A stretch of DNA of 46,247 nt from a virus: IMG/VR virus record IMGVR_UViG_3300020396_000011, positions 1 through 46,247 of that record. The stretch is one strand, 5' to 3'. The translations under genes were made by a program, and so were the position numbers. How positions within the stretch are numbered: the stretch's first letter is position 1; every line of letters begins with the position of its first letter. The notes beneath the pieces were generated by a model. It was not told the DNA's origin and did not search any database. It saw only the letters and a list, made by a program, of their open reading frames with translations. Below, piece by piece: positions 27,358 to 44,742 of the stretch.

Positions 27358-27377
27358 TTTGCGTCCTTTCAAGACTA

Positions 27378-27427: not shown

Positions 27428-27430
27428 GTA

Positions 27431-27715
27431 TTATCCAACCTGTGCATTAATGATTTCAACCAACTGATCAGCAAAAATATTATCAAGTTCTTTGTCAGTG
27501 ACCACGTTCATTTTCCGAACTCGCTGGAACTTAACATCATAGAGGTCTTGACCGTTCAATTCAATTGAAACATAACCTTTCCACTTAACCATACCAGAAG
27601 TTTTAAACCGTAGACCCTCAGTGCTGGTCTTGACAAAATCTTTTGCGCCCCAAGCACCAAATGCCCAGAAGTCTAATGCTTTGATTTGGTCACGAATTGT
27701 TTCTGCGATGTTCAT
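27431..27715 (-). CDS. Conserved small phage protein
   Basis: 94 aa. MNIAETIRDQIKALDFWAFGAWGAKDF...FKTSGMVKWKGYVSIELNGQDLYDV is a pattern I associate with many marine T4-like phages. Probably a mixed alpha/beta soluble protein. Early promoter at 27744-27772. Function unknown. Confidence 0.65.
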   Translation of the reverse strand: MNIAETIRDQIKALDFWAFGAWGAKDFVKTSTEGLRFKTSGMVKWKGYVSIELNGQDLYDVKFQRVRKMNVVTDKELDNIFADQLVEIINAQVG

Positions 27716-27743
27716 GTGATTCTCTCTTTCTCTTGTTCACATA

Positions 27744-27772
27744 TTCATAACATTTGAATTACATAGTGTCAA
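27744..27772 (-). promoter_or_regulatory. Early promoter (TTGACA-N17-TATGAA)
   Basis: The -35 lies inside the last codons of the upstream gene. Leader ends in AGAGAGAATCACATG. Confidence 0.6.
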
Positions 27773-27953
27773 GTTGTTTTTCTTGTTTCATTTCTCGCAA
27801 GATTTTAACAGCCTCTTGTCTGCATTCTGCGCGACTATTTTCCCATGGGCTACTATCTATCAGCAATCCCTGATAACGATGTGTGGCGGTCCTACACCCC
27901 ACACTATCTGTTGAGATGGAAATATCCTTGGTCAACCAATATTTATTATTCAT
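27759..27953 (-). CDS. Small hypothetical protein
   Basis: 64 aa. DKDISISTDSVGCRTATHRYQGLLID...ENSRAECRQEAVKILREMK has a central tyrosine/arginine stretch and a C-terminal helix. Start overlaps the upstream stop by one base. Function unknown. Confidence 0.55.
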   Translation of the reverse strand: MNNKYWLTKDISISTDSVGCRTATHRYQGLLIDSSPWENSRAECRQEAVKILREMKQEKQLDTM

Positions 27954-28168
27954 TAGACTGAACCCTCACCGTTATATACACCTTTTTCTGCGGCAGCATA
28001 ATAATCTGGAATTGGCAATTCTCTTTTTGCTAATTCAGCAGCGTATCCTTTAGCAGCAGTTTCGTTCATTGATCCTTTAGTATGACCAATAGAACCACAA
28101 TCAGTAGCGGCAGCATTTTCATAATACTCAACCAATTCTACATCTGTTAAAATTGTTACGTTATTCAT
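27953..28168 (-). CDS. Small hypothetical protein
   Basis: 71 aa from ATG 28168 (AGGAGATAAGTG upstream; a GTG one codon earlier is possible). Helical, alanine-rich (TDVELVEYYENAAATDCGSIGHTKGSMNETAAKGYAAELAKRELPIP). Function unknown. Confidence 0.55.
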   Translation of the reverse strand: MNNVTILTDVELVEYYENAAATDCGSIGHTKGSMNETAAKGYAAELAKRELPIPDYYAAAEKGVYNGEGSV

Positions 28169-28178
28169 CACTTATCTC

Positions 28179-28367
28179 CTAATCTAACAATGCCTCTAAT
28201 TGGCGGGTTGCATCACGTAAAACCATTTGAGCATCACGTAAGCAAGACTCTAACAGATAACCACCACCTTGCGTGATGCTGTTTGTGAGGTATTGAATTT
28301 CTTCTTCACTATCAGCAATGCACTCTTTCAAGGCAGAAATCTTTGCGGAGTTTGTCCATTCAGTCAT
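28179..28367 (-). CDS. Small helical hypothetical protein
   Basis: 62 aa, almost entirely helical with heptad-like spacing (KECIADSEEEIQYL...DAQMVLRDATRQLEALLD). Member of the 28.6-27.8 kb four-gene early group. Function unknown. Confidence 0.55.
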   Translation of the reverse strand: MTEWTNSAKISALKECIADSEEEIQYLTNSITQGGGYLLESCLRDAQMVLRDATRQLEALLD

Positions 28368-28378
28368 AGTCTTTTCCT

Positions 28379-28582
28379 TTATATCGGAGTTTCAGTAACA
28401 ATTATGCGCCGACCAAGATTTTTCATTATTGCGTTCTCGGTATAAACTTTTACCTTACCATCGTTATACATGACAGTGATCAGATTTTCGCCATCAGCAT
28501 CATGTTGGATTGATGAAATCTCACCAATACCAATCCGACCAGAAGCGTAAGGCCGTACAACACCCATTCCAACATCAAACAT
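28379..28582 (-). CDS. Small beta-rich hypothetical protein
   Basis: 67 aa. GMGVVRPYASGRIGIGEISSIQHDADGENLITVMYNDGKVKVYTENAI suggests an SH3/KOW-like barrel. Strong ribosome site (AAAGGAGAGTGATCAATG). First gene of its group. Function unknown. Confidence 0.6.
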   Translation of the reverse strand: MFDVGMGVVRPYASGRIGIGEISSIQHDADGENLITVMYNDGKVKVYTENAIMKNLGRRIIVTETPI

Positions 28583-28600
28583 TGATCACTCTCCTTTGAT

Positions 28601-28647
28601 TACATTATATGAATACATGATTCGTTAAAGATTGTCAATAGTTATTT
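28601..28647. repeat. Exact 47-bp direct repeat, copy 1 (copy 2 at 28893-28939)
   Basis: The repeat spans the promoter plus the last codons and stop of the upstream gene. The two copies flank the 74-aa gene and could recombine to delete it. Confidence 0.9.
28610..28638 (-). promoter_or_regulatory. Early promoter (TTGACA-N17-TATTCA)
   Basis: A TATAAT six bases further downstream is an alternative -10 but would give a 23-nt spacer. Drives 28582-27759. Confidence 0.6.
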
Positions 28648-28870
28648 ACATCTCAATTAGAGTTGCGAGATGATTGAGGGCTTTTGACCGAGCCTTCATT
28701 TCATTCAGTGTCATTAGAACAAGTTGTGTAGTGGTCAGGCTATTCCGCTTAGACCAAACAGCATACATATCATCTCGCTCATATACGACTTGATACTTTG
28801 TACCACGCGCTTCAAGAGCATACATCATTTTGTTGTTTTCGGTCATGGTAGTTTCAACGATCATAGACAT
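28646..28870 (-). CDS. Small hypothetical protein
   Basis: 74 aa from ATG 28870 (AAAGAGAG upstream); the frame to 28930 runs into the promoter and is rejected. MSMIVETTMTENNKMMYALEARGTKYQVVYERDDMYAVWSKRNSL suggests a beta-rich fold. It lies between two 47-bp repeats. Function unknown. Confidence 0.55.
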   Translation of the reverse strand: MSMIVETTMTENNKMMYALEARGTKYQVVYERDDMYAVWSKRNSLTTTQLVLMTLNEMKARSKALNHLATLIEM

Positions 28871-28901
28871 ATTCGGCTCTCTTTCTGTTGGGTACATTAT
28901 A

Positions 28902-28930
28902 TGAATACATGATTCGTTAAAGATTGTCAA
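28902..28930 (-). promoter_or_regulatory. Early promoter (TTGACA-N17-TATTCA), exact copy of 28610-28638
   Basis: Identical core and flanks to the preceding promoter, as part of the 47-bp repeat. Confidence 0.6.
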
Positions 28931-28933
28931 TAG

Positions 28934-29146
28934 TTATTTGAGATTATCGGGCTTCTTTGCCATAGCCATCCAATCTTCTTCCCGCAAGCCATACCCAATA
29001 TCATATCCTTCATAATAAGCAACATGGTGGATGGGCCAAACTTCTTCGCCATTCTTCTTAGGTTTGTTATTCATACCATCTTTCATACCATCATCAAAAG
29101 CATTTTTTGCACCCACCAGCCAGGAGGTGTTATCTTCTTTATTCAT
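28934..29146 (-). CDS. Small hypothetical protein
   Basis: 70 aa from ATG 29146, set by AAGGAAAGAGAAG upstream; the longer frame reads through the leader. SWLVGAKNAFDDGMKDGMNNKPKKNGEEVWPIHHVAYYEGYDIGYGLREEDW resembles small phage proteins with A..G...G helices of the 'Y..GYDxGY' kind. Function unknown. Confidence 0.55.
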   Translation of the reverse strand: MNKEDNTSWLVGAKNAFDDGMKDGMNNKPKKNGEEVWPIHHVAYYEGYDIGYGLREEDWMAMAKKPDNLK

Positions 29147-29188
29147 CTTCTCTTTCCTTGTTAAAAATAAAACTCTTTCTAGATTCCA

Positions 29189-29217
29189 AAGGTAATACAT
29201 TCGGGCGAGATTGTCAA
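29189..29217 (-). promoter_or_regulatory. Possible early promoter (TTGACA-N17-TACCTT)
   Basis: Good -35 but poor -10; assigned from position in front of 28934-29146. Confidence 0.35.
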
Positions 29218-29366
29218 GACTTGATCAGCAAATAAAATAATTTATTTTAGGGATTGACAAACAGGATACAGGCGTGTTATATTAAACTGACAACCTATGA
29301 AAACTGATTCGCATTTACATACCTCGTCAGTTCATCTTAACATGCAGGTAGTATGAATGTCAAGAC
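29201..29366. other. Intergenic segment with inward hairpin and plus-strand promoter
   Basis: No convincing gene. It contains TTGACA-N18-TATATT on the plus strand (29254-29283), a 7-bp inverted pair AACTGAC/GTCAGTT flanking about 35 nt, and on the minus strand a TTGACA just after the terminator at 29367. A 19-codon plus frame lacks a ribosome site. It may encode short RNAs. Confidence 0.4.
29254..29283 (+). promoter_or_regulatory. Plus-strand sigma70-type promoter without an obvious gene
   Basis: TTGACA, 18 nt, TATATT. It would transcribe toward the 119-aa minus-strand gene, i.e. antisense. Confidence 0.4.
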
Positions 29367-29394
29367 AAAAAAAAGAGTAGTATCTCTACTACTC
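29367..29394 (-). terminator. Strong intrinsic terminator
   Basis: Minus strand GAGTAGTA-GAGA-TACTACTC (8-bp stem, 4-nt loop) followed by eight T. It ends transcripts from 29446-29805. Confidence 0.9.
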
Positions 29395-29445
29395 TCAGTT
29401 GGGAAAAACCGTCTGACGAACGGTATTAGTATGTTCTTGGGTTGA

Positions 29446-29805
29446 TCAATAAGAGGTCGCGTAAATCATATCTTCCACTGCTTCAACACAACCTTCGGTA
29501 TCAAGAGCAGCACAAACAGCCGCCTCAAAAACCTCAACCACATCATTACCAGCAACTGTCTCGGAACCTCGTATAGTCGCTTGAATACCATCTCCAGGAA
29601 ACGCTGTGATCGTACCTACATCGTGATAGGAAGAACCATCAACAGTATAGCCAATGCTCCAAACAGGTGTGTTATAATCCCACTCACCATCATGATCTAG
29701 AACTCGCTCCATATTAAAATGAATTGAATTATCGGAACCACGACGATTAACCTCACGCGCCATATGACCGTGACCAGTAATATTCGCTGAAACTGCACTT
29801 TGCAT
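29446..29805 (-). CDS. Hypothetical protein
   Basis: 119 aa, acidic and beta-rich in the middle (WSIGYTVDGSSYHDVGTITAFPGDGIQATIRGSETV) with a helical C-terminus (VVEVFEAAVCAALDTEGCVEAVEDM). No family recognised. Ends before a strong terminator, so it is a single-gene unit. Function unknown. Confidence 0.55.
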   Translation of the reverse strand: MQSAVSANITGHGHMAREVNRRGSDNSIHFNMERVLDHDGEWDYNTPVWSIGYTVDGSSYHDVGTITAFPGDGIQATIRGSETVAGNDVVEVFEAAVCAALDTEGCVEAVEDMIYATSY

Positions 29806-29842
29806 CTGAAACTCTCTTTCTCAATTGTTTCTTTCAATTACA

Positions 29843-29871
29843 GTTATGGCATGATTCGTAACCAATGTCAA
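29843..29871 (-). promoter_or_regulatory. Possible early promoter (TTGACA-N17-CATAAC)
   Basis: Consensus -35 with a weak -10 in front of the 119-aa gene. Confidence 0.4.
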
Positions 29872-29934
29872 CCCTAAATCTTTAAGAAAGTATGCCTCGC
29901 ACCCTTACTTAAAAACTTAGTTGCTGGGCCTTTT

Positions 29935-30234
29935 GAATTGGGCGCGCCCCCATCCATCCAACCCAGACCAGACTTCTCTGGGTTGACCCTATATCACCTT
30001 GCTTCGCCATAGATTTCAATTCATATAGGGAGAACCTACTTTCGCTTTTTGTGGCGTTAATTTAAACCATCGGACCTTCTCCAATTATGAAAGTATTTTT
30101 TAACAAGGTCATGTCCTACTGTCGGAACACATTCTTTATCGTTAGGTCTAGGGATATCGCAACATACGCCCCCAAATCAAAACAGCAAATCTAATTTGCA
30201 CCCTGTTAAAAAATACTTTCGTGATTCTTTCTAC
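29935..30234 (-). ncRNA. Candidate structured RNA with its own early promoter
   Basis: No reading frame of note in about 450 nt. Reading the minus strand from the promoter at 30241-30269, the transcript opens with a 17-bp perfect helix (30204-30220 with 30089-30105) that closes a ~100-nt domain. Further hairpins follow: GGAGAA/TTCTCC, CCCTATAT/ATATAGGG (29987-29994 with 30023-30030), AACCCAGA/TCTGGGTT (29960-29967 with 29977-29984), and the palindrome GGGCGCGCCC (29940-29949). It is more GC-rich at the 3' side than its surroundings. Class unknown; the exact 3' end is not defined. Confidence 0.65.
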
Positions 30235-30240
30235 TCTTAT

Positions 30241-30269
30241 AATCTAGTCTAATTACGCTGTCGTGTCAA
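30241..30269 (-). promoter_or_regulatory. Early promoter cassette (TTGACA-N17-TAGATT) for the structured RNA
   Basis: Full cassette with ATAAGAGTAGAAAGAATCAC downstream, but no gene follows. It overlaps the stop of 30253-30477. Confidence 0.75.
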
Positions 30270-30477
30270 GTGCTTTTAATTTATCTGTTGCAGACACAAT
30301 CATCGCGATTTGTTCATCATAAGCCTCATCAGACAAATCTGCCAAAACTGAGGCCATCGCGCTCTCTAGGTAACCCGCGATATAGGCATGATTATTATCA
30401 CCATACTTATTCGTTGCGCTCTTAGATAGATCAGATAGAACCAACCGCGCTACCGACTTTTTGTTTTTCGTGTCCAT
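30253..30477 (-). CDS. Small helical hypothetical protein
   Basis: 74 aa. A basic start (MDTKNKKSVARLVLSDL) is followed by an acidic helical body (HAYIAGYLESAMASVLADLSDEAYDEQIAMIV). One-base overlap with the preceding gene. Function unknown. Confidence 0.6.
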   Translation of the reverse strand: MDTKNKKSVARLVLSDLSKSATNKYGDNNHAYIAGYLESAMASVLADLSDEAYDEQIAMIVSATDKLKALDTTA

Positions 30478-30707
30478 TACACCAACTCCAATGCTTTTTT
30501 CAACAACATGCTTGCGCCATCATCAGAGGCAAAGCCATTCTCAGAGGCGAAATCCATAGATGAACCAGCATATATTTCAGAGGCCATACCCTTTGTGGTA
30601 AGAACATAAGCAACCATCTCAGGCGACTTACCGTAACCAACAAGACCATCAGTATCTGAATACATCTGGATGCCTCCATTGTGGGCTGAAATATAATCTA
30701 CTGACAT
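30477..30707 (-). CDS. Small hypothetical protein
   Basis: 76 aa from ATG 30707, preceded by AAAGGATTTGCGAATG; the two-codon extension would use TTG. Repeated S/G/D-rich turns (YAGSSMDFASENGFASDDGASML). Function unknown. Confidence 0.55.
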   Translation of the reverse strand: MSVDYISAHNGGIQMYSDTDGLVGYGKSPEMVAYVLTTKGMASEIYAGSSMDFASENGFASDDGASMLLKKALELV

Positions 30708-30736
30708 TCGCAAATCCTTTCTTTAAGAGTAATTGA

Positions 30737-30892
30737 TTAAGGGTTAGTTCCATACGGTCCAGCGACATAAGGCGGGTTTAATTCAACCTCAACCTCATGG
30801 AGCCTTTCTTCCAATTCACTAACAGTTTCGGTCAGACTTGAGACCATCTCCATCAAGGTTTCTATCCTTGCCATCATCAGTTCTTCAGTCAT
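30737..30892 (-). CDS. Small coiled-coil protein, 51 aa
   Basis: ATG 30892 to TAA 30737 with AGAGGATTTGCGAATG upstream, almost the same leader as the next gene. Residues ~5-38 form a leucine/glutamate heptad helix (RIETLMEMVSSLTETVSEL), followed by a proline/glycine tail. Function unknown. Confidence 0.6.
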   Translation of the reverse strand: MTEELMMARIETLMEMVSSLTETVSELEERLHEVEVELNPPYVAGPYGTNP

Positions 30893-30928
30893 TCGCAAAT
30901 CCTCTCAAGTGATTCTCTCTACTCTTAT

Positions 30929-30957
30929 AATCTAGCAAAAGAATACTATCTTGTCAA
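30929..30957 (-). promoter_or_regulatory. Early promoter cassette (TTGACA-N17-TAGATT)
   Basis: Heads the 30892-30253 group. Leader ATAAGAGTAGAGAGAATCAC. Confidence 0.8.
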
Positions 30958-30960
30958 CAC

Positions 30961-31089
30961 CTAAATCGTTGCCCCTATAGTTAATTCATTTGGATTTGCA
31001 ATAAACTTAAAGGACGGGTTTGCGCTCATCCTCGCTTCACATGCGCTCAGTAGAGTAACCACCAAACCTAATACTACAATTCTTTTCAT
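30961..31089 (-). CDS. Mini-lipoprotein, 42 aa
   Basis: ATG 31089 overlaps the SbmA-like gene stop (ATGA) and has TTGGAGAAAG upstream. MKRIVVLGLVVTLLSAC is a complete type II signal peptide with lipobox LSAC, leaving a ~26-residue lipidated peptide. Coupling to the transporter gene suggests a joint envelope role such as surface masking or a transporter partner. Confidence 0.65.
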   Translation of the reverse strand: MKRIVVLGLVVTLLSACEARMSANPSFKFIANPNELTIGATI

Positions 31090-32066
31090 TTGCTTTCTCC
31101 AATCTCAATCTGCTTTTCAAACTCAGTCAATCGTTTATAGACACTGATCAACTCAACCACAATCGCCCATGACTTAACCACATACTGTAAACTACCTTCT
31201 ACCCGCCCAAATGCTCTAATAGTCTGTTGTAATACACCTAGAGTAATAGTACCAGCAAGGATAGTCGGGCCTAACGCAAGATAAGGAATCAACACCATCC
31301 CTTGGAAATAAGAGTACCGTGCCAGATTAAAGTAAGCATAATGGAAATATGATTTGAAATGAATATCTCTCACCCAATCAAATAACTCTGCTAAAGTCTT
31401 AGGCTGACCCGCCTTCGGATCATCTTCAGCATGAACCAGCACCTTACGATAACCAGCCTCTCTCTTTTGAATATCATACTCAATGCCAGGAAGTTTAATT
31501 CCTACCGCTGCCAAGAGAAGTGTTCCCCCCAAGGCAGTAGCAATAGCAACCCACATCAGAGAATTAGATACCTCGCCCAGTATAGGCAAATGAGTTACAG
31601 CCGCACTCAACCCGATCAGAATAGGAATGAACGCGATTAAAGTCATGATTGATTCCATCAAGCCAACCCCAAGGTCTTCCATGATACGAGCGAACTTAAT
31701 AGTATCCTCTTGAATACGTTGTGACGCACCTTCTAGACCTCTAGCATACTTGAACTTATCATGGTAATACTCAACCATACTGGTGCGCCATCTGAATATC
31801 CAATGAGATACAAAGTATTTTGTGACCACCGCAACCGCAATAAACTTCGCTGCCAACCATCCAAATGATGCCAGTGATCCATAGAACTCAGCGGGTGTTA
31901 CACTACCCGGAGTAGCCAATGCCTCTTGGAGATTATTATAGAACACTCCAAACCATTCATTGATAGCAACATCTATCTGTACCTGATACCATGTAGAGCA
32001 TAGGATTACCAGAGTACCTAGCAGTGACCAGTGCATCCAATGCTTTTGTATAAAGAACTTAAACAT
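31086..32066 (-). CDS. SbmA/BacA-family inner-membrane transporter, N-terminally short
   Basis: 326 aa with about six membrane helices. It carries the family signatures FRWRTSMVEYYHDKF, EGASQRIQEDTIKFA, LMESIMTLIAFIPILIGLSA, VGIKLPGIEYD, FHYAYFNLARY and ILAGTITLGVLQQ. SbmA/BacA import proline-rich peptides, microcins, bleomycin and, for BacA relatives, corrinoids, using the proton gradient. E. coli SbmA is about 406 aa. The phage protein starts at the equivalent of roughly residue 80, lacking the first one or two helices. It lies in an operon with two small genes and a mini-lipoprotein under a TTGCCA/TATAAT promoter. Confidence 0.88.
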   Translation of the reverse strand: MFKFFIQKHWMHWSLLGTLVILCSTWYQVQIDVAINEWFGVFYNNLQEALATPGSVTPAEFYGSLASFGWLAAKFIAVAVVTKYFVSHWIFRWRTSMVEYYHDKFKYARGLEGASQRIQEDTIKFARIMEDLGVGLMESIMTLIAFIPILIGLSAAVTHLPILGEVSNSLMWVAIATALGGTLLLAAVGIKLPGIEYDIQKREAGYRKVLVHAEDDPKAGQPKTLAELFDWVRDIHFKSYFHYAYFNLARYSYFQGMVLIPYLALGPTILAGTITLGVLQQTIRAFGRVEGSLQYVVKSWAIVVELISVYKRLTEFEKQIEIGESK

Positions 32067-32307
32067 CTGCTTTGATCATCTTCTGCTTCAGAACTTCGTG
32101 TGCCTCATTCAGTTGCTCCCACTTAGCCTCAAAAGGTTGCCGCCACTTCTTAACATCATTGCGAGTTCCATATGTCAATGAGATACAATCATCAATGAAC
32201 CTCAGAACTTCTAGTCGGGCATGGGTATCCATATCTTCAAACTCAGTCTTTCCTATAGAGCGAGTAACAGCCAATGCCATATTATAACCTATCGTGGTAT
32301 CCATCAT
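32059..32307 (-). CDS. Small helical hypothetical protein
   Basis: 82 aa, soluble and helical (TTIGYNMALAVTRSIG...HARLEVLRFIDDCISLTYG...EHAHEVLKQKM type pattern). It overlaps the transporter start by 8 nt and the upstream stop by 4 nt. Function unknown. Confidence 0.55.
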   Translation of the reverse strand: MMDTTIGYNMALAVTRSIGKTEFEDMDTHARLEVLRFIDDCISLTYGTRNDVKKWRQPFEAKWEQLNEAHEVLKQKMIKADV

Positions 32308-32576
32308 GGTCTTGTTCCAATCTTATATTGTCTCTTAAAGGATTTACGTGTTGTGTTCTTACTGGAGGATTGTTTAAATTGTGTGTTAATTTCCCCTCCG
32401 CTTTGCATCGCTTGATTCTGTTCTATCAGGCTTTCTTTCAGATCATGGCTTTTTTGTGTTACTACATCATCCATCTTCTTATCCATCGCGATAGTATCAC
32501 TCATATCCTTGAGAATTTCATTATATTTTTCTTCATTTGCATCAATAACATTACCGTCAATCATTTTAAGACTCAT
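32304..32576 (-). CDS. Small hypothetical protein
   Basis: 90 aa, charged and helical at first, with a Ser/Lys-rich basic C-terminus (QSSSKNTTRKSFKRQYKIG). First gene of the SbmA operon. Function unknown. Confidence 0.55.
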   Translation of the reverse strand: MSLKMIDGNVIDANEEKYNEILKDMSDTIAMDKKMDDVVTQKSHDLKESLIEQNQAMQSGGEINTQFKQSSSKNTTRKSFKRQYKIGTRP

Positions 32577-32595
32577 TTTATTTTCCTTTCATGCT

Positions 32596-32624
32596 ATTAT
32601 ATCATAAAAAGAGTTGAATGGCAA
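32596..32624 (-). promoter_or_regulatory. Sigma70-type promoter for the SbmA operon (TTGCCA-N17-TATAAT)
   Basis: Perfect -10 and a good -35, 20 nt upstream of ATG 32576. Confidence 0.7.
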
Positions 32625-32650
32625 CCCTTTATCATATAAATATATTTAAC

Positions 32651-32980
32651 CTATAACGTCTCATTGGGTTTATGTAGTGTATCTCGCACCCATTTAATCT
32701 TTTGATCTTGTTCCCAATTACTGAGATAATCGTTGTCTCTATCAAATAAGGTAAGCATTTCTTCCTCGGAACATTGATAAACATCACATTCTTGTTCGCC
32801 TATGTGATATTGAGAAAACTCATCACATTCTTCACAAATGACTGTATCTAACGCCCAATCATCAAGTTCGTGATCATTCGGCTTTACATCAGGATTTAGT
32901 TTTGCAAGGTCATCTTTGTGCATCACATAGCGATGACGGAAAGATGATACTGTAGTTACTACCACATAGTCTTGAGTCAT
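32651..32980 (-). CDS. Hypothetical acidic protein
   Basis: 109 aa. N-terminal VVVTTVSSFRHRYVMHKDDLAKLN is followed by a Cys-containing acidic part (ICEECDEFSQYHIGEQECDVYQC). CEEC plus further Cys could bind metal. ATGA-coupled to the upstream 54-aa gene. Function unknown. Confidence 0.6.
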   Translation of the reverse strand: MTQDYVVVTTVSSFRHRYVMHKDDLAKLNPDVKPNDHELDDWALDTVICEECDEFSQYHIGEQECDVYQCSEEEMLTLFDRDNDYLSNWEQDQKIKWVRDTLHKPNETL

Positions 32981-33141
32981 TCATCCATATCCTCTATTGT
33001 TAACACTTTATTATATTCAATTGTGTATCCACATGCACGAAGAAAGTTTTGAAACTCTTCAAGCAATTCATCTAACGATGCATGACTCGCAATTTCCATT
33101 TTAATCTTTGTTCCATTATCTTGGTATTGAATAAACTTCAT
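32977..33141 (-). CDS. Small hypothetical protein, 54 aa
   Basis: ATG 33141 with an ideal ribosome site (GGAGGAAGATAATG) to TGA 32977. MKFIQYQDNGTKIKMEI...LDELLEEFQNFLRACGYTI is a beta-then-helix mini-protein, like others I recall from marine phages. Function unknown. Confidence 0.65.
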   Translation of the reverse strand: MKFIQYQDNGTKIKMEIASHASLDELLEEFQNFLRACGYTIEYNKVLTIEDMDE

Positions 33142-33173
33142 TATCTTCCTCCCCCATCATAAAGAGTTTCCTT

Positions 33174-33202
33174 ATTATACTATGCGAATGTGATTCTGTC
33201 AA
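33174..33202 (-). promoter_or_regulatory. Perfect-consensus sigma70 promoter (TTGACA-N17-TATAAT)
   Basis: 33 nt upstream of ATG 33141. Its -35 overlaps the end of the proton-channel operon. Confidence 0.8.
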
Positions 33203-33648
33203 GGAGAATCTTTGGGTATATCCTGATGATTTAAGAGGGATTGTTCGCTTATAAAGAGTGATGAGTATCCATTACCATTTGGTTGAAACTTACCTTCCAT
33301 ACTATTACCAGCAAGTGCTGAGTTTTTGGCTTGTTGAAGTTTCTTTGCTTTCTCTCTATCATATGGCATTTTATACAGGCGGTGTCCTCGTTCTTGCTGA
33401 TATATCCATAGTAGAATAGTATTACCTTGATCAGTTATTTCGTGATGAATGTAATTGAATTTACCATTTGGCTCTTGATTGATTGGCGCACCAGCCAATA
33501 ATATAAGTTGATATGATATGAAGATAAAGAATGCAAGTTGAGTTGGAAGCGCGATAAGTTTAAGGCCAAATGATGCATTTGAATAGTATATAAGACTTGC
33601 CGTGTATATACAAGTAATCGCGATTATAATTATAAAGAGTGTTATCAT
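33199..33648 (-). CDS. Membrane protein of the proton-channel operon
   Basis: 149 aa. Two N-terminal membrane helices (~1-20 and ~30-55) are followed by a soluble part with HHEITDQGNTILLWIYQQERGHRLYKMPYDREKAKKLQQA and a disordered NG-rich end. It follows the ExbD-like gene after 9 nt, so it is probably a third subunit. No family recognised. Confidence 0.65.
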   Translation of the reverse strand: MITLFIIIIAITCIYTASLIYYSNASFGLKLIALPTQLAFFIFISYQLILLAGAPINQEPNGKFNYIHHEITDQGNTILLWIYQQERGHRLYKMPYDREKAKKLQQAKNSALAGNSMEGKFQPNGNGYSSLFISEQSLLNHQDIPKDSP

Positions 33649-33657
33649 GTTTGTTTC

Positions 33658-34287
33658 CTATTCGTTTGAAATTTGCGGTCTACCAATCCCTATATTCGGA
33701 CGAATCTTTGTATCTATCTGATCGTTCATATCATATATATTACCATCATTATCCACCATGAAAGAGAATACCGAAACTTCTTCCTTAAACCTAGCCCTTA
33801 CAGTACGACTCATATCAAGAGAAAATGGATGCATATCCATAATATCAATCGTTACTGGCGTGGGATATTCTTCTTCAGCCGTGGAGCGAGATGTGCTGAA
33901 ATTATGAACTGTCACCACATACTCGCCAGGAATGATTGCGTTGATTGAAAGTGTCTCAAGATTTCTCTCAATCGTGATCGTTTCACCATTCAATTGAATC
34001 GTATCATTTGCATCACCAAGATCATCTCGCTCTAGCACCATGTAACCGCCATCCTTTGCCGAGAACCCAACAATCGTTTTGTCTGGACCCTTTACCCACA
34101 AATCAATGTCAATACCAGACTCATCATCCCACGACGATGTAATGATAAACTCTGATCTAGGATCAATCTTACCTTCTTCCGCAATCGGATTAATAAGCAA
34201 AAATGCAATCAATAAGAGTGACGTAAACCCAATCAATAAATTAAATAAAAGATCAGTGAACGCTAAATTATTACTATACTTTCTCAT
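33658..34287 (-). CDS. ExbD/MotB-like stator with periplasmic beta-sandwich domain
   Basis: 209 aa. A single N-terminal helix AFTDLLFNLLIGFTSLLLIAFLL keeps the proton-carrying aspartate (D12), as in ExbD, TolR and MotB. The rest is periplasmic. It does not resemble an ExbD fold or an OmpA peptidoglycan-binding domain. Residues ~47-95 (ITSSWDDESGIDIDLWVKGPDKTIVGFSAKDGG) look like the DUF2135-type 'DxDLWVxGPdg' sandwich, followed by a second beta-rich segment (PGEYVVTVHNFSTS). It overlaps the ExbB-like gene by 14 nt. Confidence 0.72.
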   Translation of the reverse strand: MRKYSNNLAFTDLLFNLLIGFTSLLLIAFLLINPIAEEGKIDPRSEFIITSSWDDESGIDIDLWVKGPDKTIVGFSAKDGGYMVLERDDLGDANDTIQLNGETITIERNLETLSINAIIPGEYVVTVHNFSTSRSTAEEEYPTPVTIDIMDMHPFSLDMSRTVRARFKEEVSVFSFMVDNDGNIYDMNDQIDTKIRPNIGIGRPQISNE

Positions 34288-34735
34288 CTGACGATTCCAA
34301 CATAACTAACTGAAACTTAATTATAATAGATGAAACTAAACCAGCAAGGGTTGTCATCAATGCAATGCCCATACCAGACGCAAGTGTACCTATCACTGCC
34401 TTCATTGCAGATGCACTCGTAGTGTCAACATTCGTGAATGTAGTCGTTAAAACTAATAAGAATCCAATTAATGTTCCAACCATACCTATAGACATTACAA
34501 CATCAGATGAAAACCATAAAAAGTCTGTGTTCCTATTGTTTTCATATGTAAACTGTTGACGCCAACTCTCAATACCAATCTTTAAAGTGGTAATAATAAA
34601 AATAAATCCAATCAAAAAAGTAATGCGTGAAGCATCCTTCTCATATACAAAATTAAATACCAAATATTGATATTGTAAAAATGTACCAAATAAACCTAAC
34701 AAGACAATGCTTGTCCACCATTTCCAAAATGCCAT
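34274..34735 (-). CDS. ExbB/TolQ/MotA-like proton channel protein
   Basis: 153 aa, with membrane helices at ~8-28, ~38-55, ~80-97 and ~113-145. SIGMVGTLIGFLLVL (82-96) and ASGMGIALMTTLAGLVSSI (119-137) are the signature of TolQ/ExbB channel helices, including the conserved threonine and glycines. With the ExbD-like partner it should form a pentamer-dimer proton channel in the host inner membrane. The protein is short (ExbB ~240 aa) and lacks a large cytoplasmic domain. Confidence 0.75.
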   Translation of the reverse strand: MAFWKWWTSIVLLGLFGTFLQYQYLVFNFVYEKDASRITFLIGFIFIITTLKIGIESWRQQFTYENNRNTDFLWFSSDVVMSIGMVGTLIGFLLVLTTTFTNVDTTSASAMKAVIGTLASGMGIALMTTLAGLVSSIIIKFQLVMLESSDEKV

Positions 34736-34794
34736 CGTTAAAATCCTTATGTTAACATAGTAATATATATCACTATATTAAGTATAGAATTGCA

Positions 34795-34814
34795 ATAGGC
34801 AATTTCTTGCCTAT
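34795..34814. other. Hairpin between divergent transcription units
   Basis: Perfect 8-bp stem ATAGGCAA/TTGCCTAT with loop TTTC, directly abutting the plus-strand late promoter. Could be a regulator site, a transcript stabiliser or a bidirectional pause site. No promoter of consensus quality is evident for the minus-strand channel operon. Confidence 0.5.
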
Positions 34815-34821
34815 ATAAATA
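34814..34821 (+). promoter_or_regulatory. T4-type late promoter, plus strand
   Basis: Exact TATAAATA, 35 nt upstream of ATG 34856. A second copy at 34849-34856 overlaps the start codon and is too close to act for this gene. Confidence 0.75.
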
Positions 34822-34855
34822 ATATTATCTGAAACCAAAATGAAAGGTTATAAAT

Positions 34856-35086
34856 ATGGAAGTTTTAAATAAAGTTAAAGCATGGGCAGGTGGACTCGCT
34901 GAAGTAGGCATAAGTATTGCAGCCCTTATGATCGTACTTGAAGTTCTGGGTGTTGGTGCAATCCCATTCATTCCAGCAACAAGCGTTGTAACAAATGTTG
35001 CAACAATGCTGGCAGCATTGGGCGCACAAGGTGTAATCGGTCTTATCGCGGTCTGGATTCTATACGAAATCTGGTCACGTAAATAA
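34856..35086 (+). CDS. Two-helix membrane protein, late (holin candidate)
   Basis: 76 aa. Two hydrophobic helices (~12-38 and ~46-72) are joined by a proline/glycine turn, with short charged ends (MEVLNKVK and EIWSRK). The size and topology suit a class II holin or a virion membrane peptide. A holin is needed for the endolysin here, but nothing else proves this role. It is the only gene on a short plus-strand island with its own late promoter. Confidence 0.6.
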   Translation: MEVLNKVKAWAGGLAEVGISIAALMIVLEVLGVGAIPFIPATSVVTNVATMLAALGAQGVIGLIAVWILYEIWSRK

Positions 35087-35091
35087 AAAAA

Positions 35092-35112
35092 TAGGGGGGA
35101 AAATCCCCCCTA
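35092..35112 (-). terminator. GC-rich intrinsic terminator between convergent genes
   Basis: 8-bp stem TAGGGGGG/CCCCCCTA with 5-nt loop. On the minus strand it is followed by TTTTTTTATT, so it terminates the PiT-like gene. It may also stop plus transcripts of the holin-like gene. Confidence 0.85.
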
Positions 35113-35119
35113 TCATAGC

Positions 35120-36115
35120 CTATTGAGATATATTCTCAACCCCAATCTCTTTCTGAGCATCTTCAAGAGGTACAATCACATAATGAATTGAAAGAACAAT
35201 AGCGAGTGATGCCGCAAGCCCAACCATCATTTTAAGGAAGTCTTTGCCAATCAATGGAAATACTACTTTAAACTTCTCCTTACCAGTTACTGTCGCCATA
35301 GCAAGTTCTCGCCCACATAACAGTCCAACAAAGACCCATGTGGTTGACATTGGAATATCATTCAATTCCTTAAAGAAATATAGAATTAAGAAGTAAACCA
35401 AATCAATAATTGTTGCTGATCTGACATAGCGAGTGTTATGCTTTGATAAAACAATCTGTTGAATTTTACCACCACCCTCTCTTAGCATAAAGCCAAGACC
35501 AGCAACAAACACAACAGATATCATAATCATCAATTCAACCGACAATTCCCTTGGAAGAAAAACGGCAATGTTTGCCATATCATGAGATAACCAAGTCCAC
35601 CATAGGAATCCAGTTGTTATCCATTGACCAACACGCCAATAGTTCTTATGATTTTCTTTTACAGGTTTTGCCTCATCAAGCAATCTGCTTACTATCATCC
35701 ATATAGCATATGCCGCAATCGCTGCAACTGCATAACCTAACATGGATTTCATCAACATTTTCTCTAATACAAACGATGAAGCGAATGCCGAAAGAACAAG
35801 AAATGATGTGCTTACTGGTACACCAAACCTTGTTAATAGCAATAAGACGCCAGGAGCGCAAGCGTGATACCACTGTATCTCTTGCCATGGTATTTTGTTT
35901 AATCTCCCATAACTAATATCACCACCATTATAATACCACCCATACCATAATGCCCACAACAAAACAGACGATGCTGCAATCCACATAGTCTGCCAACTAA
36001 ATCTCTCATTATTTGATGCAATCCATGTTCCCAATGTTTGAACTGAATCGTTTGCGATAACCGCATATGCCGCGAATAGAAATCCGATCAGCATCCAGAT
36101 ACTCATAACTTCCAT
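35120..36115 (-). CDS. PiT-family-like inorganic phosphate transporter
   Basis: 331 aa from ATG 36115, set by AAGGAGAGTATAATG; the frame to 36247 lacks a ribosome site. About ten membrane helices. Two inverted-repeat signatures of PiT transporters are recognisable: VIANDSVQTLGTWIASN near the N-terminus and WLSHDMANIAVFLPR in the middle (family: GANDxANxxG). Each is followed by a P-S-T turn (GVPVSTSF and DIPMSTTW). It probably imports phosphate with H+ or Na+, feeding DNA synthesis in phosphate-poor water. The family call is from motifs; divergence is high. Confidence 0.72.
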   Translation of the reverse strand: MEVMSIWMLIGFLFAAYAVIANDSVQTLGTWIASNNERFSWQTMWIAASSVLLWALWYGWYYNGGDISYGRLNKIPWQEIQWYHACAPGVLLLLTRFGVPVSTSFLVLSAFASSFVLEKMLMKSMLGYAVAAIAAYAIWMIVSRLLDEAKPVKENHKNYWRVGQWITTGFLWWTWLSHDMANIAVFLPRELSVELMIMISVVFVAGLGFMLREGGGKIQQIVLSKHNTRYVRSATIIDLVYFLILYFFKELNDIPMSTTWVFVGLLCGRELAMATVTGKEKFKVVFPLIGKDFLKMMVGLAASLAIVLSIHYVIVPLEDAQKEIGVENISQ

Positions 36116-36159
36116 TATACTCTCCTTTTTTGAGGTTTTAAGTATTGATTTAACATTGC

Positions 36160-36167
36160 AATTTATA
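36160..36167 (-). promoter_or_regulatory. Near-match late promoter (TATAAATT)
   Basis: Seven of eight bases of the late octamer, 45 nt upstream of the transporter ATG. It may give late expression of the transporter. Confidence 0.35.
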
Positions 36168-36204
36168 TGAAAATTACTGAAATTCGTGTAACAGTTTTGT
36201 GAAA

Positions 36205-36480
36205 TGTGAGAGAAGATAAACAGTATCATTGAGCAAACAAAAATCACACTTTACCGCCGAGTACTCAGCTTGTGAAAGTGTCTCTCCTTGAAGGTCTAGT
36301 TCTAATGGAGTAGACCTCTCTCACTGCTTATCTTCTATCGGCAATCTCAATGCCGCACTACTTGTGATCGTGCTTTGTTTCCGTTCAGTTAGACGGTTCA
36401 CTTCGTCAGAGTACAACTCCAGGACTATCTAGGTAACTAGCCTAGCAGGTCAAGTGATGGGAGAGAAACTAATCTCTCCC
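36205..36480 (-). ncRNA. Candidate pseudoknotted structured RNA or long 5' leader
   Basis: About 275 nt without a frame between DUF932 and the transporter. Minus-strand pairs: 36459-36466/36473-36480 (8 bp), CTAGG/CCTAG, GACG/CGTC, CGGCA/TGCCG, AGGTCTA/TAGACCT (36292-36298/36311-36317), ACACTTT/AAAGTGT. Two long-range helices cross: 36211-36223 with 36324-36336 (13 bp, one G-U) and 36235-36248 with 36363-36380 (7+6 bp). This forms a pseudoknot. The RNA may be processed from the DUF932 transcript or act as a riboswitch-like leader of the transporter. Strand is inferred from the neighbours. Confidence 0.6.
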
Positions 36481-36488
36481 AAATTCTT

Positions 36489-37463
36489 TTATGCAGCGTT
36501 AGCGAGTTCAACTGCCTTTTCTGCCGCTTTTACTTTGCGAGTTTGATTAACACCAAACCACTGACTGTGCAAGCGATTTTCAGCATTGCGCCCTTGCATA
36601 TGATCTGTAACATACGTGACGCTATTCAATGCGCTCCACCATGTACCAGGAGCAAACTCTGCACCAGGTTGTGTCTCTAGAACATCGTAGCAAAGTTTTG
36701 CATTGCGTGACAAGTCTGCCAGTTTATCAACTTGATTTTGTTCTTTGGTGCGTGAAGTATTCGGAAATACATCATTATAGAACTGGATCAAGGAGTCGGC
36801 AGTAACGCGCTTGGAACCCAAGAATTGCGCCATGTCTTTGTACTTTGCAAACTTTTCAGATGCAATTCCAAGAGTTGTTTTCACATTGTCTGCATTGAAC
36901 ACTGCGCGATGACCAACTTTTGCTGCATTCGTTGCGTTACGACTAAGTGACATTGTAAGAGTGTTATTACAAACAACACGAACTGGAGTGAAACGAACGT
37001 CAATAGATTTCCCATACTGGTGTGGATTACTGAAAAGTAAGAATGATTCAACAGTATCCTCACCAAATACATCAAATGACTCTTTGACTTTTGCCAATGC
37101 CCAAGTGATCTGTCCACCTTTGAGCGAACCAGCAGTATGCATTTCCATGTCACCAGCGGCGACATACTCTGCAAAGAAATCAAAAGCATCTGAATTTTGA
37201 CAAGGATTCCATCCTTCGCCAACATTTGTCAGAACCTTGTTATCGCTCAGACGAACCAAAGACTCTTGACCAGTTTTGATTTTTTCGCCATTGATTTCAA
37301 TAAATGATGGAACCTTTTGCACTTCCCAATCAAGACCAGCCTTTTGCATCATTTGAACTGGTGTTAGATCATTACTAACTGGTGTGCCTAACCCATGCCA
37401 AGGAACATCTCCCGCATAAGCCATTTGCGCTACACCGTCTACAAATTCTACTTCATGTGCCAT
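36489..37463 (-). CDS. DUF932 phage/plasmid-like protein
   Basis: 324 aa. MAYAGDVPWHGLGTPV near the start, TPVRVVCNNTLTMSL in the middle and GTWWSALNSVTYVTDHMQGR at the end are the classical DUF932 (phage/plasmid-like protein, TIGR03299 type) signatures. These proteins are common on phages, plasmids and in hypermobile islands, and no biochemical function is established. The perfect promoter and good ribosome site suggest high early expression. The structured RNA follows directly. Confidence 0.88.
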   Translation of the reverse strand: MAHEVEFVDGVAQMAYAGDVPWHGLGTPVSNDLTPVQMMQKAGLDWEVQKVPSFIEINGEKIKTGQESLVRLSDNKVLTNVGEGWNPCQNSDAFDFFAEYVAAGDMEMHTAGSLKGGQITWALAKVKESFDVFGEDTVESFLLFSNPHQYGKSIDVRFTPVRVVCNNTLTMSLSRNATNAAKVGHRAVFNADNVKTTLGIASEKFAKYKDMAQFLGSKRVTADSLIQFYNDVFPNTSRTKEQNQVDKLADLSRNAKLCYDVLETQPGAEFAPGTWWSALNSVTYVTDHMQGRNAENRLHSQWFGVNQTRKVKAAEKAVELANAA

Positions 37464-37506
37464 TTTGAACCCTTTCAGTGATTCGTTGTTTTCATTTCAT
37501 TTGTAT

Positions 37507-37535
37507 ATTATACGATAAAAACAAACACTTGTCAA
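37507..37535 (-). promoter_or_regulatory. Perfect-consensus promoter for DUF932 (TTGACA-N17-TATAAT)
   Basis: Strongest predicted promoter in the region; about 45 nt upstream of the ATG. Confidence 0.85.
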
Positions 37536-37559
37536 GCATTTGTTTTCATTTCATTTAAA

Positions 37560-37904
37560 TTACCCTACACACTCTGTGAAGCCCATCATACCAACTTCAT
37601 GCAAGGACTGCCCAAAGGCGGTTTCAATCTCAAACAAATCACCCATCATTGAACTACGCAAACCCATACCACCTTCATTTAGTGGTGCAATGCGATTAAC
37701 ATGGTTAGGGTTATAGTCTGAATTATCAGCAATATCATCACGGCTCCAAGAACCCATGATATTTTGTGTCCAGCGATAGGCATACTCAAGAGCCTCATTC
37801 TGATCAGTGATAGAACTTGGCAGATTTACTTCTGCAACTAAATTCTGACCTTCAACATCGCCAGTTTCACGATTGCGCTCTGCATGATAAACATAAACTT
37901 GCAT
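37560..37904 (-). CDS. Hypothetical protein
   Basis: 114 aa from ATG 37904 (TTGAAAGGACATACCATG). N-terminal strand MQVYVYHAERNRETGDVEGQNLVAEVNL, then a helical, Trp-containing middle. No family recognised. Early cassette promoter upstream. Confidence 0.6.
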   Translation of the reverse strand: MQVYVYHAERNRETGDVEGQNLVAEVNLPSSITDQNEALEYAYRWTQNIMGSWSRDDIADNSDYNPNHVNRIAPLNEGGMGLRSSMMGDLFEIETAFGQSLHEVGMMGFTECVG

Positions 37905-37941
37905 GGTATGTCCTTTCAAGACTGATTCTCTTTACTCTTAT

Positions 37942-37970
37942 AATCTAGTATATGTTGAGGTGATTGTCAA
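37942..37970 (-). promoter_or_regulatory. Early promoter cassette (TTGACA-N17-TAGATT)
   Basis: Leader ATAAGAGTAAAGAGAATCAG then TTGAAAGGAC ribosome site. Confidence 0.8.
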
Positions 37971-37972
37971 CC

Positions 37973-38320
37973 CTAATATGCCATAATCTTTGGACCACCA
38001 ACTTCTGGCTTATGGAGAACAGCAACTTTGCTTTCAAGGATGGGCTGTTCATCTGCCTTTGTTACAAATGAACTGTATTTGTAGGGGTCATATGTGACTG
38101 CAACACCATTATTTAAACCGAAAATTTCTTCAGACATTTCTCCACGAACCATCGCGTGAACATTCTTGCGGCCCTCTTTTAGAACCTTTAAACGTCCAGC
38201 CTGACGAACCACATAAGTTGGGTTCATAATTGTCACATCAGACATATGAGCGATGACACGCCCCTTATGTCTGACAGAAAAGATATGTTTGTGGAGATTG
38301 TAATAGACTTCCACTCTCAT
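37973..38320 (-). CDS. Conserved hypothetical protein
   Basis: 115 aa, basic. MRVEVYYNLHKHIFSVRHKGRVIAHMSDVTIMNPTYVVRQAGRLKVLKEGRKNVHAMVRG is a pattern I recall in several phages and plasmids, probably a nucleic-acid-contacting beta-rich protein. Two bases separate it from the preceding gene. Function unknown. Confidence 0.65.
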   Translation of the reverse strand: MRVEVYYNLHKHIFSVRHKGRVIAHMSDVTIMNPTYVVRQAGRLKVLKEGRKNVHAMVRGEMSEEIFGLNNGVAVTYDPYKYSSFVTKADEQPILESKVAVLHKPEVGGPKIMAY

Positions 38321-38322
38321 TT

Positions 38323-38676
38323 TTACGCTCCTACAAATTTAATGTTGTGGTTGCTTGCGGCACAAATAGTAAGAACCTCACCAGCGATATTGATCGTATC
38401 ACCAATCTCATATCCAAGGTAGACTTTCTGTTCAGTCTTAGAGGATGTTACCATTGAACCATTACCAAAGGCCCAGTGACCATCTTCACTGTCCCAGCCA
38501 ACAGTATAGTTCCGCACCCACTCATATTTATCATTGGCGAATGCCCGAATGGTAATGTTGATGGATGACATAAGCGAGTCACCAGCACCTTCACGGTCCA
38601 AAGGCAAAACAGCATCTGCATTGCTCACTACGAGAGAACCGGGAAGGTTTGAAACGATTGAAACTGCTGAAGTCAT
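38323..38676 (-). CDS. Hypothetical beta-rich protein
   Basis: 117 aa from ATG 38676 (AAAGGACACAAAATG). Repeated beta strands with Ser/Asn-rich turns. No family recognised. Early cassette promoter at 38718-38746. Confidence 0.6.
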   Translation of the reverse strand: MTSAVSIVSNLPGSLVVSNADAVLPLDREGAGDSLMSSINITIRAFANDKYEWVRNYTVGWDSEDGHWAFGNGSMVTSSKTEQKVYLGYEIGDTINIAGEVLTICAASNHNIKFVGA

Positions 38677-38717
38677 TTTGTGTCCTTTCAAGACTAAGTG
38701 ATTCTCTTTACTCTTAT

Positions 38718-38746
38718 AATCTAGTATAAGAGTAGGAGTTTGTCAA
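38718..38746 (-). promoter_or_regulatory. Early promoter cassette (TTGACA-N17-TAGATT)
   Basis: Complete cassette with ATAAGAGTAAAGAGAATCAC; drives the 38676-37973 pair. Confidence 0.8.
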
Positions 38747-39045
38747 GCCATTTTAGAATATTTCCGATACTTTTTAATATCCCACTTTTCAACAACAGGA
38801 TTGCCATACTCATCCTCATCAACGGCAATGTAAGCGACAGTCTTTAAGACTTTACCATATCTATAATTCCATTGGCCTACCGCATTATGAGAAACCCAAA
38901 TCAAATGAGGAAAATCCCACTCATCTGTCATTTCTTCATGATTGGTGGAAAACTCAAAAAGATTGTCACAATCCTTTTCAGTAAAAGAACCAGCGATTGA
39001 ACCATCACCATAAGTGAAACCTACTGAATCTGGAGCGTATGCCAT
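38743..39045 (-). CDS. Hypothetical protein
   Basis: 100 aa from ATG 39045, set by GGAAGGTG; the longer frame to 39105 overlaps the upstream gene. MAYAPDSVGFTYGDGSIAGSF...HLIWVSHNAVGQWNYRYGKVLKTVAYIAVDEDE is beta-rich. Function unknown. Confidence 0.6.
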   Translation of the reverse strand: MAYAPDSVGFTYGDGSIAGSFTEKDCDNLFEFSTNHEEMTDEWDFPHLIWVSHNAVGQWNYRYGKVLKTVAYIAVDEDEYGNPVVEKWDIKKYRKYSKMA

Positions 39046-39049
39046 GCTA

Positions 39050-39196
39050 TTACACCTTCCCGTAAAAGTTAACCCAAAATTCCCATTCTTCTTGACCCAT
39101 CTCACTCAGGTCCATATGGGAAATCTTACTCAAAACTTCTTCTGCGACAGCTTTGGAGCAATTCAAAAGATCAGAAATTTGTTGAATACGAAGCAT
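39050..39196 (-). CDS. Small HTH-like protein, 48 aa
   Basis: ATG 39196 (AAAGGGTTCACAATG) to TAA 39050. RIQQISDLLNCSKAVAEEVLSKIS could be a minimal helix-turn-helix. The C-terminal half is acidic and aromatic. Leads the 39196-38743 pair. Function unknown. Confidence 0.5.
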   Translation of the reverse strand: MLRIQQISDLLNCSKAVAEEVLSKISHMDLSEMGQEEWEFWVNFYGKV

Positions 39197-39209
39197 TGTG
39201 AACCCTTTC

Positions 39210-39259
39210 AGTGATTCTCTCTACTCTTATAAACTAATATAAAAGTAGAGGTTTGTCAA
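39210..39259. repeat. Exact 50-bp direct repeat, copy 2 (copy 1 at 27378-27427)
   Basis: Identical promoter cassette 11.8 kb from copy 1. Confidence 0.9.
39231..39259 (-). promoter_or_regulatory. Early promoter cassette (TTGACA-N17-TAGTTT)
   Basis: Same core as 27399-27427; drives the 48-aa and 100-aa genes. Confidence 0.75.
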
Positions 39260-39261
39260 CA

Positions 39262-44182: not shown

Positions 44183-44185
44183 TAC

Positions 44186-44212
44186 AAAAAAGGAAGAGTG
44201 ATTAACTCTTCC
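44186..44212 (-). terminator. Intrinsic terminator of the permuted tmRNA unit
   Basis: Minus strand GGAAGAG-TTAATCA-CTCTTCC (7-bp perfect stem) followed by TTTTTT. Confidence 0.9.
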
Positions 44213-44219
44213 TCTTAAT

Positions 44220-44405
44220 AAAATGTGATATAGTGTCACTTTTCTGTTGCTAGGTAAGTGACCAACCCCCTTAATTATGCAGCGAGTGCGTAACCAGAAG
44301 GTGCAAAATTATCGTTTGCATTTAGTATTTTCTTCGCGTTAACCCAGCTAAGTACGGGGAAGTCTCCATTTTCCTATCAACACCTGTCTATCCTATTTCA
44401 TCCCC
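44220..44405 (-). ncRNA. ssrA: tmRNA coding piece (permuted, two-piece tmRNA)
   Basis: 5' end GGGGATG (44405-44399) is the 5' strand of the acceptor stem and pairs with CATCTCC in the acceptor piece. GGATAGACAGG corresponds to the conserved GGAUUCGAC segment. GTTGATA pairs with TATCAAC of the acceptor piece (helix P2). The A-rich run and CTAAATGCAAACGAT precede the resume codon as in bacterial tmRNAs. The tag reads ANDNFAPSGYALAA then TAA. Downstream is a GTGA/TCAC hairpin and the terminator. tmRNA rescues stalled ribosomes by trans-translation with SmpB. The 3' boundary is approximate. Confidence 0.9.
44275..44319 (-). other. tmRNA tag-peptide reading frame (ANDNFAPSGYALAA)
   Basis: Fifteen codons: GCA resume codon through GCA TAA. 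The ANDN start and the ALAA end are the hallmarks of proteobacterial SsrA degradation tags recognised by ClpXP/ClpAP. Confidence 0.92.
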
Positions 44406-44406
44406 A

Positions 44407-44595
44407 TCATAAAGAAACTGAACCTAAAGGTTTACAGATATATTTAACTGTATCCCAATGACCATCATTCGGTAATTCTGTATATTCTATGAGCATAGTT
44501 TCACACTTCAATTTAGTCTCAAACTGTTGTACATCTTGCTCTAAACAAGTTGATCCAGAACAAACTGTGAGTAGTATTTGCCAAATAATTTCCAT
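44407..44595 (-). CDS. Small exported protein encoded inside the tmRNA intervening segment
   Basis: 62 aa with AAGGATACTAAAGAATG as ribosome site. The hydrophobic N-terminus (MEIIWQILLTVCSGSTC) looks like a weak signal. C-x22-C with DGHWDTVKYIC resembles the plus-strand gene at 40813-41091. Its ATG lies 15 nt after the acceptor-piece CCA, and its stop ends one base before the coding piece. The mRNA and the tmRNA precursor therefore share one transcript, and tmRNA maturation would cut out exactly this message. Function unknown. Confidence 0.65.
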   Translation of the reverse strand: MEIIWQILLTVCSGSTCLEQDVQQFETKLKCETMLIEYTELPNDGHWDTVKYICKPLGSVSL

Positions 44596-44610
44596 TCTTT
44601 AGTATCCTTA

Positions 44611-44670
44611 TGGTGGAGATGCGTGGTACTGCCCCACGGTCCAGTATGCATCAAGTTGATATCATCAACT
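44611..44670 (-). ncRNA. ssrA: tmRNA acceptor piece (permuted, two-piece tmRNA)
   Basis: Minus strand 5' to 3': TATCAAC (44661-44655, P2 3' strand), then a 5+7+5 T-arm CGTGG-GGCAGTA-CCACG (44638-44622), CATCTCC (44621-44615, acceptor 3' strand with one G-U against GGGGATG), A discriminator and encoded CCA (44613-44611). The T-loop GGCAGTA departs from the usual TTCGAAT. The 5' end coincides with the expected start from the late promoter at 44678-44685. An extra stem GTTGAT/ATCAAC at the 5' end could compete with P2. Confidence 0.82.
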
Positions 44671-44677
44671 ACATTTT

Positions 44678-44685
44678 TATTTATA
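44678..44685 (-). promoter_or_regulatory. T4-type late promoter of the permuted tmRNA
   Basis: Exact TATAAATA about 8 nt upstream of the first tmRNA-like nucleotides, so transcription would start at the acceptor piece itself. Confidence 0.85.
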
Positions 44686-44742
44686 TCATAAATTTTGATT
44701 CTTGTCAATAGAGAAATAGTTTTTATTGACCTTTTTAACAGA

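Follow-up and report, generated by a model that had tools for sequence, protein, structure and literature searches.

A probable structured non-coding RNA downstream of the DUF932 gene in marine T4-like phages

The gap that follows a DUF932 gene in a T4-like virus most likely encodes, as judged from its sequence, a folded non-coding RNA of ~280 nt that falls outside known families. The window, by which we mean the whole stretch of DNA analysed, is the IMG/VR record IMGVR_UViG_3300020396_000011 with its 46,247 bases. Its genes lie mostly on the minus strand, and they include a T4-like gene set (ribonucleotide reductase subunits, PhoH-like, endolysin). The gap extends over ~370 nt (36116-36488), between the DUF932 gene and a transporter gene.

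The element, its surroundings and its relatives

The features of the locus, in the direction of transcription, are as follows.

37507-37535, minus strand: sigma-70-type promoter TTGACA-17-TATAAT before DUF932, 12 of 12 consensus positions matched
36489-37463, minus strand: DUF932 / TIGR03299 gene (Pfam and TIGR03299)
36201-36480, minus strand: RNA element, 5′ end at 36480 and 3′ end at 36201; the bounds are those of the conserved block, not transcript ends
36187-36194, minus strand: Pho-box-like CTGTTACA between RNA and transporter, a motif match
36161-36167, minus strand: -10-like TATAAAT between RNA and transporter, a motif match
35120-36115, minus strand: transporter gene, a remote PiT/PHO4 relative (PDB 6l85, Pfam)

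The transporter was matched to PDB 6l85 at E 0.0069 and to Pfam PHO4 at E 1.6, the latter far under the Pfam cut-off. The scan that gave this promoter found, overall, about as many sites in the record as in shuffles. Sites resembling the promoter of the window also precede DUF932 in all five related contigs (L008, L005, L004, L006 and L007). On the minus strand, neither a promoter of the RNA's own nor a terminator-like site was found by scanning between the RNA and the transporter. Within 120 nt before the start of transporter relatives, 17 of 80 loci carry CTGTTACA, a putative PhoB-like motif, or CTGTAACA, in most cases at a distance of 67-80 nt. The same motif pair occurs in random windows at 0.9% per strand, and exact copies of either are absent upstream of the transporter relatives in L084 (= L008) and L007.

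Relatives were sought in viral contigs by protein scans with DUF932 and the transporter and by sequence patterns. Besides the window's own virus, five IMG/VR contigs (L004-L008) hold the element, and two lineages can be told apart. In the window lineage the conserved block spans 280 nt, over which L005 and L008 are 97.1% and 95.7% identical to the window, respectively. In the second lineage (L004, L006 and L007) it covers the first 131 nt at 92-93% identity, and the sequences are diverged beyond. IMGVR_UViG_3300020317_000016 (L003/L164) comes from the same virus and is identical to the window across the element; it is omitted from all six-sequence counts, which refer to the window and L004-L008. 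Of the RNA, L183 retains only a 42-nt remnant of the core (window 36410-36451); there (L183:1-215) a lysine-rich repeat ORF ends in the remnant, followed by a Na/Pi gene as in L005. The distribution is thus narrow, with the core in six contigs and a remnant in one.

Further pattern matches (4, 6, 7, 1 and 20 per pattern) were not accepted as relatives. The core model R1 gave no match in those of the pattern hits that were submitted to it, and the 20 hits of one pattern offered only 0-1 further stem pairs each. A pattern hit in L188 was judged by eye and not taken as a relative, and neither of two pattern hits from a genome-contig scan was matched by the core model. Over 99 distinct virus records, matches of R1 were limited to L004-L008 and the L183 remnant; the model was also run on 88 sources among the loci collected. 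Among 142 genomes of the class of one alphaproteobacterial MAG, scanned with stricter filters and no positive control, R1 had 0 matches, and blastn of the element found none in phages, plasmids and E. coli genomes.

Conservation of the first ~145 nt of the element is far above that of silent sites in the adjacent DUF932 gene. Between the window and L007, 126 of 140 positions of the 5′ part are identical; over the last 100 DUF932 codons the third positions are 52% identical, and the last windows of the gene 81-82%. The same difference would arise if only the RNA block had been transferred, so that constraint on the 5′ part is likely rather than proven.

The initial annotation had named no RNA class that fits, and Rfam/Infernal searches agree, with no credible family. 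At the gathering score, Rfam 15 matched tmRNA families at 44232-44712 of the window and nothing at the element, and up to E 10 all matches in window 35800-36800 and L007 1700-2100 were far below the cut-off. No group I intron was matched in Rfam either, and the element lies between genes and interrupts none. The core box of hammerhead ribozymes is CUGANGA. The window lineage has CUGACGA, the second lineage has CCGACGA, and no Rfam match accompanies them, so that a hammerhead was rejected. A hidden reading frame had been named as the alternative to a structured RNA; none is conserved through both lineages. A 35-codon frame is present in the window, L008 and L005, and its start is alike in L004, L006 and L007, where a 2-nt length change turns it into a different frame of 70 codons. 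The latter has no Pfam match, and its tblastn matches in phages are at chance level only (E 1-8). The literature searched, with most subscription papers and preprints outside it, held no description of the element or of an RNA beside DUF932.

Helices and strand

The proposed structure consists of a hairpin, a 5′ core and a 3′ domain, all given here on the minus strand.

36473-36480/36459-36466, minus strand: P1 hairpin, all 8 pairs unchanged across the six sequences, loop variable
36336-36458, minus strand: 5′ core with the proposed helices P2-P7, conserved in sequence
36452-36457/36398-36403, minus strand: P2, proposed core helix
36441-36445/36429-36433, minus strand: P3, proposed core helix
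36417-36420/36408-36411, minus strand: P4, proposed core helix, extended by 36423-36425/36405-36407
36393-36396/36381-36384, minus strand: P5, proposed core helix
36370-36373/36355-36358, minus strand: P6, proposed core helix
36351-36354/36340-36343, minus strand: P7, proposed core helix
36211-36336, minus strand: 3′ domain, closed by P8
36323-36336/36211-36224, minus strand: P8, 14 bp, retained with different bases in the second lineage
36311-36318/36291-36298 (span 36291-36318), minus strand: P9 hairpin, enclosed by P8, loop CUCC-N3/4-GAAC
36275-36281/36246-36252 (span 36246-36281), minus strand: P10 hairpin of the window lineage, from the predicted fold

The region is unusually stable as a predicted fold. 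Over 296 nt, z is -3.89 on the plus and -3.84 on the minus strand, with 0 of 200 shuffles as good. When the minus strand of the record is tiled into 329 windows of 280 nt, none reaches the stability of 36201-36480, a rank helped by a G+C content above the record average.

P8 and P9 are supported by both-side changes between the lineages. P8 corresponds to the first of two crossing long-range helices in the initial annotation (36211-36223/36324-36336), which is supported: in the second lineage the corresponding place, equally far from the core, has different bases, and these pair with a downstream partner. Among the 12 pairs common to the lineages there are 6 both-side changes, 1 one-side change and 1 mismatch, and within the window lineage pair 2 occurs as G-C, G-U and A-U. 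In 1000 shuffles each, a duplex as good as P8 was obtained 0, 0 and 1 times for the window, L008 and L005, and 42, 45 and 55 times for the three sequences of the second lineage. When ungapped pairs are counted, 12 of 12 form in the window lineage (reached by 8-17 of 20,000 shuffles); the second lineage forms 11 of 12, which 122-160 of 20,000 shuffles equal. The figures for the second lineage are post hoc, as the partner was spotted by eye before the shuffle test. In P9, all 8 pairs form in each of the six sequences, 3 of them with both-side changes between the lineages, and the loop ends CUCC and GAAC are constant in all six. Since the lineages number only two, the changes in P8 and P9 may go back to a single block replacement. 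RNAalifold on a MAFFT alignment misaligns the 3′ domain of the two lineages, so the pairs of P8 and P9 were assigned manually and then counted with a script. P10 does not vary within the window lineage, the second lineage could form another hairpin, and no covariation is claimed for P10.

Covariation had been suggested as the check on the fold, and the expectation holds for P8 and P9 only: no both-side changes occur in the pairs of P1-P7 among the six sequences. In P1-P7, 99.0% of the pair cells are standard, and these helices are plausible, not proven. P1 may instead be a hairpin that follows the DUF932 stop and is no part of the RNA.

The second long-range helix of the initial annotation (36235-36248/36363-36380), by contrast with the first, is not supported. 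Both helices can be drawn, but the second was equalled in 108-136 of 1000 shuffles for the window lineage and in 554-765 for the other, from which it is absent. Because it stays near shuffle level and is missing in the second lineage, the pseudoknot formed by the crossing of the two helices lacks support. A loop-loop pairing of P3 with P5 (UAGUUA with UAACUR), which all six sequences would allow, was considered as a true pseudoknot and rejected as expected by chance: some loop pair of at least 6 arises in 7049 of 20,000 sets of shuffled loops, P3 with P5 itself in 189 of 20,000, and the loops of P1 and P5 likewise reach 6 pairs.

The strand, undecided in the initial annotation, is well supported as minus by the proposed pairs. 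Standard pairs fill 349 of 354 cells on the minus strand vs 333 of 354 on the plus strand, and the 18 extra cells broken on the plus strand are chiefly minus-strand G-U pairs turning into A-C. One core pair is broken on the minus strand in L006 and L007 and would be G-U on the plus strand.

Transcription and possible roles

The neighbourhood indicates which gene the RNA goes with. DUF932 lies upstream in 6 of 6 sequences, with P1 beginning ~12 nt past its stop codon. The gene after the RNA is PHO4-like in the window and L008, a Na/Pi cotransporter in L005, and GAPDH in L004, L006 and L007, where a Na/Pi or PHO4-like gene comes after GAPDH. These phage GAPDH genes, between RNA and transporter, lie at L004:1974-2984, L006:4329-5339 and L007:2039-3049, and that of L007 has Gp_dh domains. 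The initial annotation had offered two options, a riboswitch-like leader of the transporter or an RNA released from the DUF932 transcript. Since the downstream gene varies and DUF932 is always upstream, an RNA within or released from the DUF932 transcript fits better.

The leading, still tentative, reading is that the element is made early, as the distal portion of the DUF932 transcript, persists as a stable RNA and acts through invariant loops. Early transcription from the sigma-70-type promoter before DUF932 would yield the RNA at the 3′ end of the transcript, and processing would then leave a stable phage RNA; as no promoter of its own or minus-strand terminator-like site is present, a free RNA would need such processing. 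It would combine a nearly invariant 5′ core, folded into short hairpins, with a 3′ domain that the 12-14 bp of P8 close and in which P9 lies, and would act through its loops whatever gene follows. Possible partners of the CUCC loop are GGAG ribosome-binding sites or a protein, the anti-Shine-Dalgarno role being a guess. The same reading allows the element to act on the DUF932 mRNA rather than to persist as a stable RNA. A bolder version, which we regard as doubtful, is a new class of early phage RNA that targets mRNAs of the host or the phage in trans via the CUCC/GAAC loop and the core, in a phage maybe equipped with a second early RNA (29880-30235, minus strand).

Should the element exist as a free early RNA, it would be a new family among the RNAs of marine T4-like phages; few structured RNAs are known from these phages, and leaders make up most of them. 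The supported helices and the invariant core are direct targets for probing or deletion, and the case suggests that structured RNAs in phage intergenic gaps are missed by current family libraries.

Placed behind the stable RNA, but possible, is a purely cis-acting fold in the 3′-UTR or between cistrons. It would stay within the DUF932 mRNA and control the stability, processing or translation of that mRNA, and no RNA would be freed. The position directly after DUF932 in all six sequences and the lack of an own promoter or terminator-like site on the minus strand would suit such an element, and a structured 3′-UTR element, the L17 downstream element, has been described (PMC2864571). However, the size, invariant core and constant loop exceed the needs of a stabilising fold, and the other DUF932 relatives (~70% identical and less) do without the RNA.

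A riboswitch-like leader that controls the next gene in read-through transcripts is unlikely. A phosphate-related or central-metabolism gene lies downstream in all six sequences, and nothing terminator-like stands before the transporter on the minus strand. On the other hand, the next gene differs, which leaves no consistent downstream gene or pathway, and in the window the Pho-box-like motif and the -10-like sequence intervene. Moreover, DUF932 is followed within 2.5 kb by a PHO4-like or Na/Pi gene, with no RNA, in 20 of 66 qualifying loci (from a set of 80, those that are RNA-free and extend at least 2.5 kb after DUF932), so that the neighbourhood predates the RNA. No expression platform was seen by eye, that is, no alternative hairpin or masking of the start near the ribosome-binding site, ~75 nt past P8.

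Still less probable is an independent plus-strand RNA that ends at the P1 hairpin. P1 scans as a weak terminator on the plus strand, with the tail AATTCTTTTA, and predicted folds of the plus strand equal those of the minus strand in stability in the window and exceed them in the second lineage. Against this, the T run begins some bases beyond the stem, the first long-range helix is weaker on the plus strand, and more pair cells are broken there, as given above.

That the RNA is left over from a mobile element, for instance an intron carrying an endonuclease gene, is very improbable: the 42-nt core piece of L183 overlaps the end of the lysine-rich repeat ORF, presumably of a kind found in phage endonucleases, with the rest missing, but no intron family was matched up to E 10 in the window, L007 and L183, the ORF fragment has no Pfam or NCBIfam match, no gene is interrupted, and L183 is equally readable as an insertion into the RNA.

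Known RNAs and other features of the window

The stable RNAs C and D of T4 are phage-encoded and lie in its tRNA region. The element resembles them as a phage-encoded RNA of no known function, a likeness of description. The manA, wcaG and glnA RNAs (RF01745, RF01761 and RF01739) are, according to PMC2864571 and PMC9964418, structured RNAs of marine T4-like phages near metabolic genes, and the element is like them in this respect. Unlike them, it has no Rfam match, and whereas they belong to the leaders of their presumed target genes, it follows DUF932 and the next gene changes. The L17 downstream element (RF01708) is a structured 3′-UTR element, a location that PMC2864571 presents as highly unusual, with precedents. 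Like it, the RNA described here lies directly 3′ of one protein gene, and in both the strand was argued from G-U pairs; gene, organisms and structure are different, and the RNA has no match in Rfam.

A second candidate non-coding RNA lies at window 29880-30235 on the minus strand, where ~350 nt contain no ORF that reaches 100 codons. It directly follows a promoter-like unit (TTGACA at 30269), one of 8 units in the record that share the TTGACA..TTATAAG spacing, and its fold has a z of -3.21. No Rfam match, no blastn match in phages and no relative among the collected loci was found for it. From 22640 to 39260 of the window, near-identical early-promoter-like units TTGACA..TTATAAGAGTARAGAGAATCA stand on the minus strand before many small genes. 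The window also carries a permuted (two-piece) tmRNA gene at 44184-44712 on the minus strand, with the tag ANDNFAPSGYALAA.
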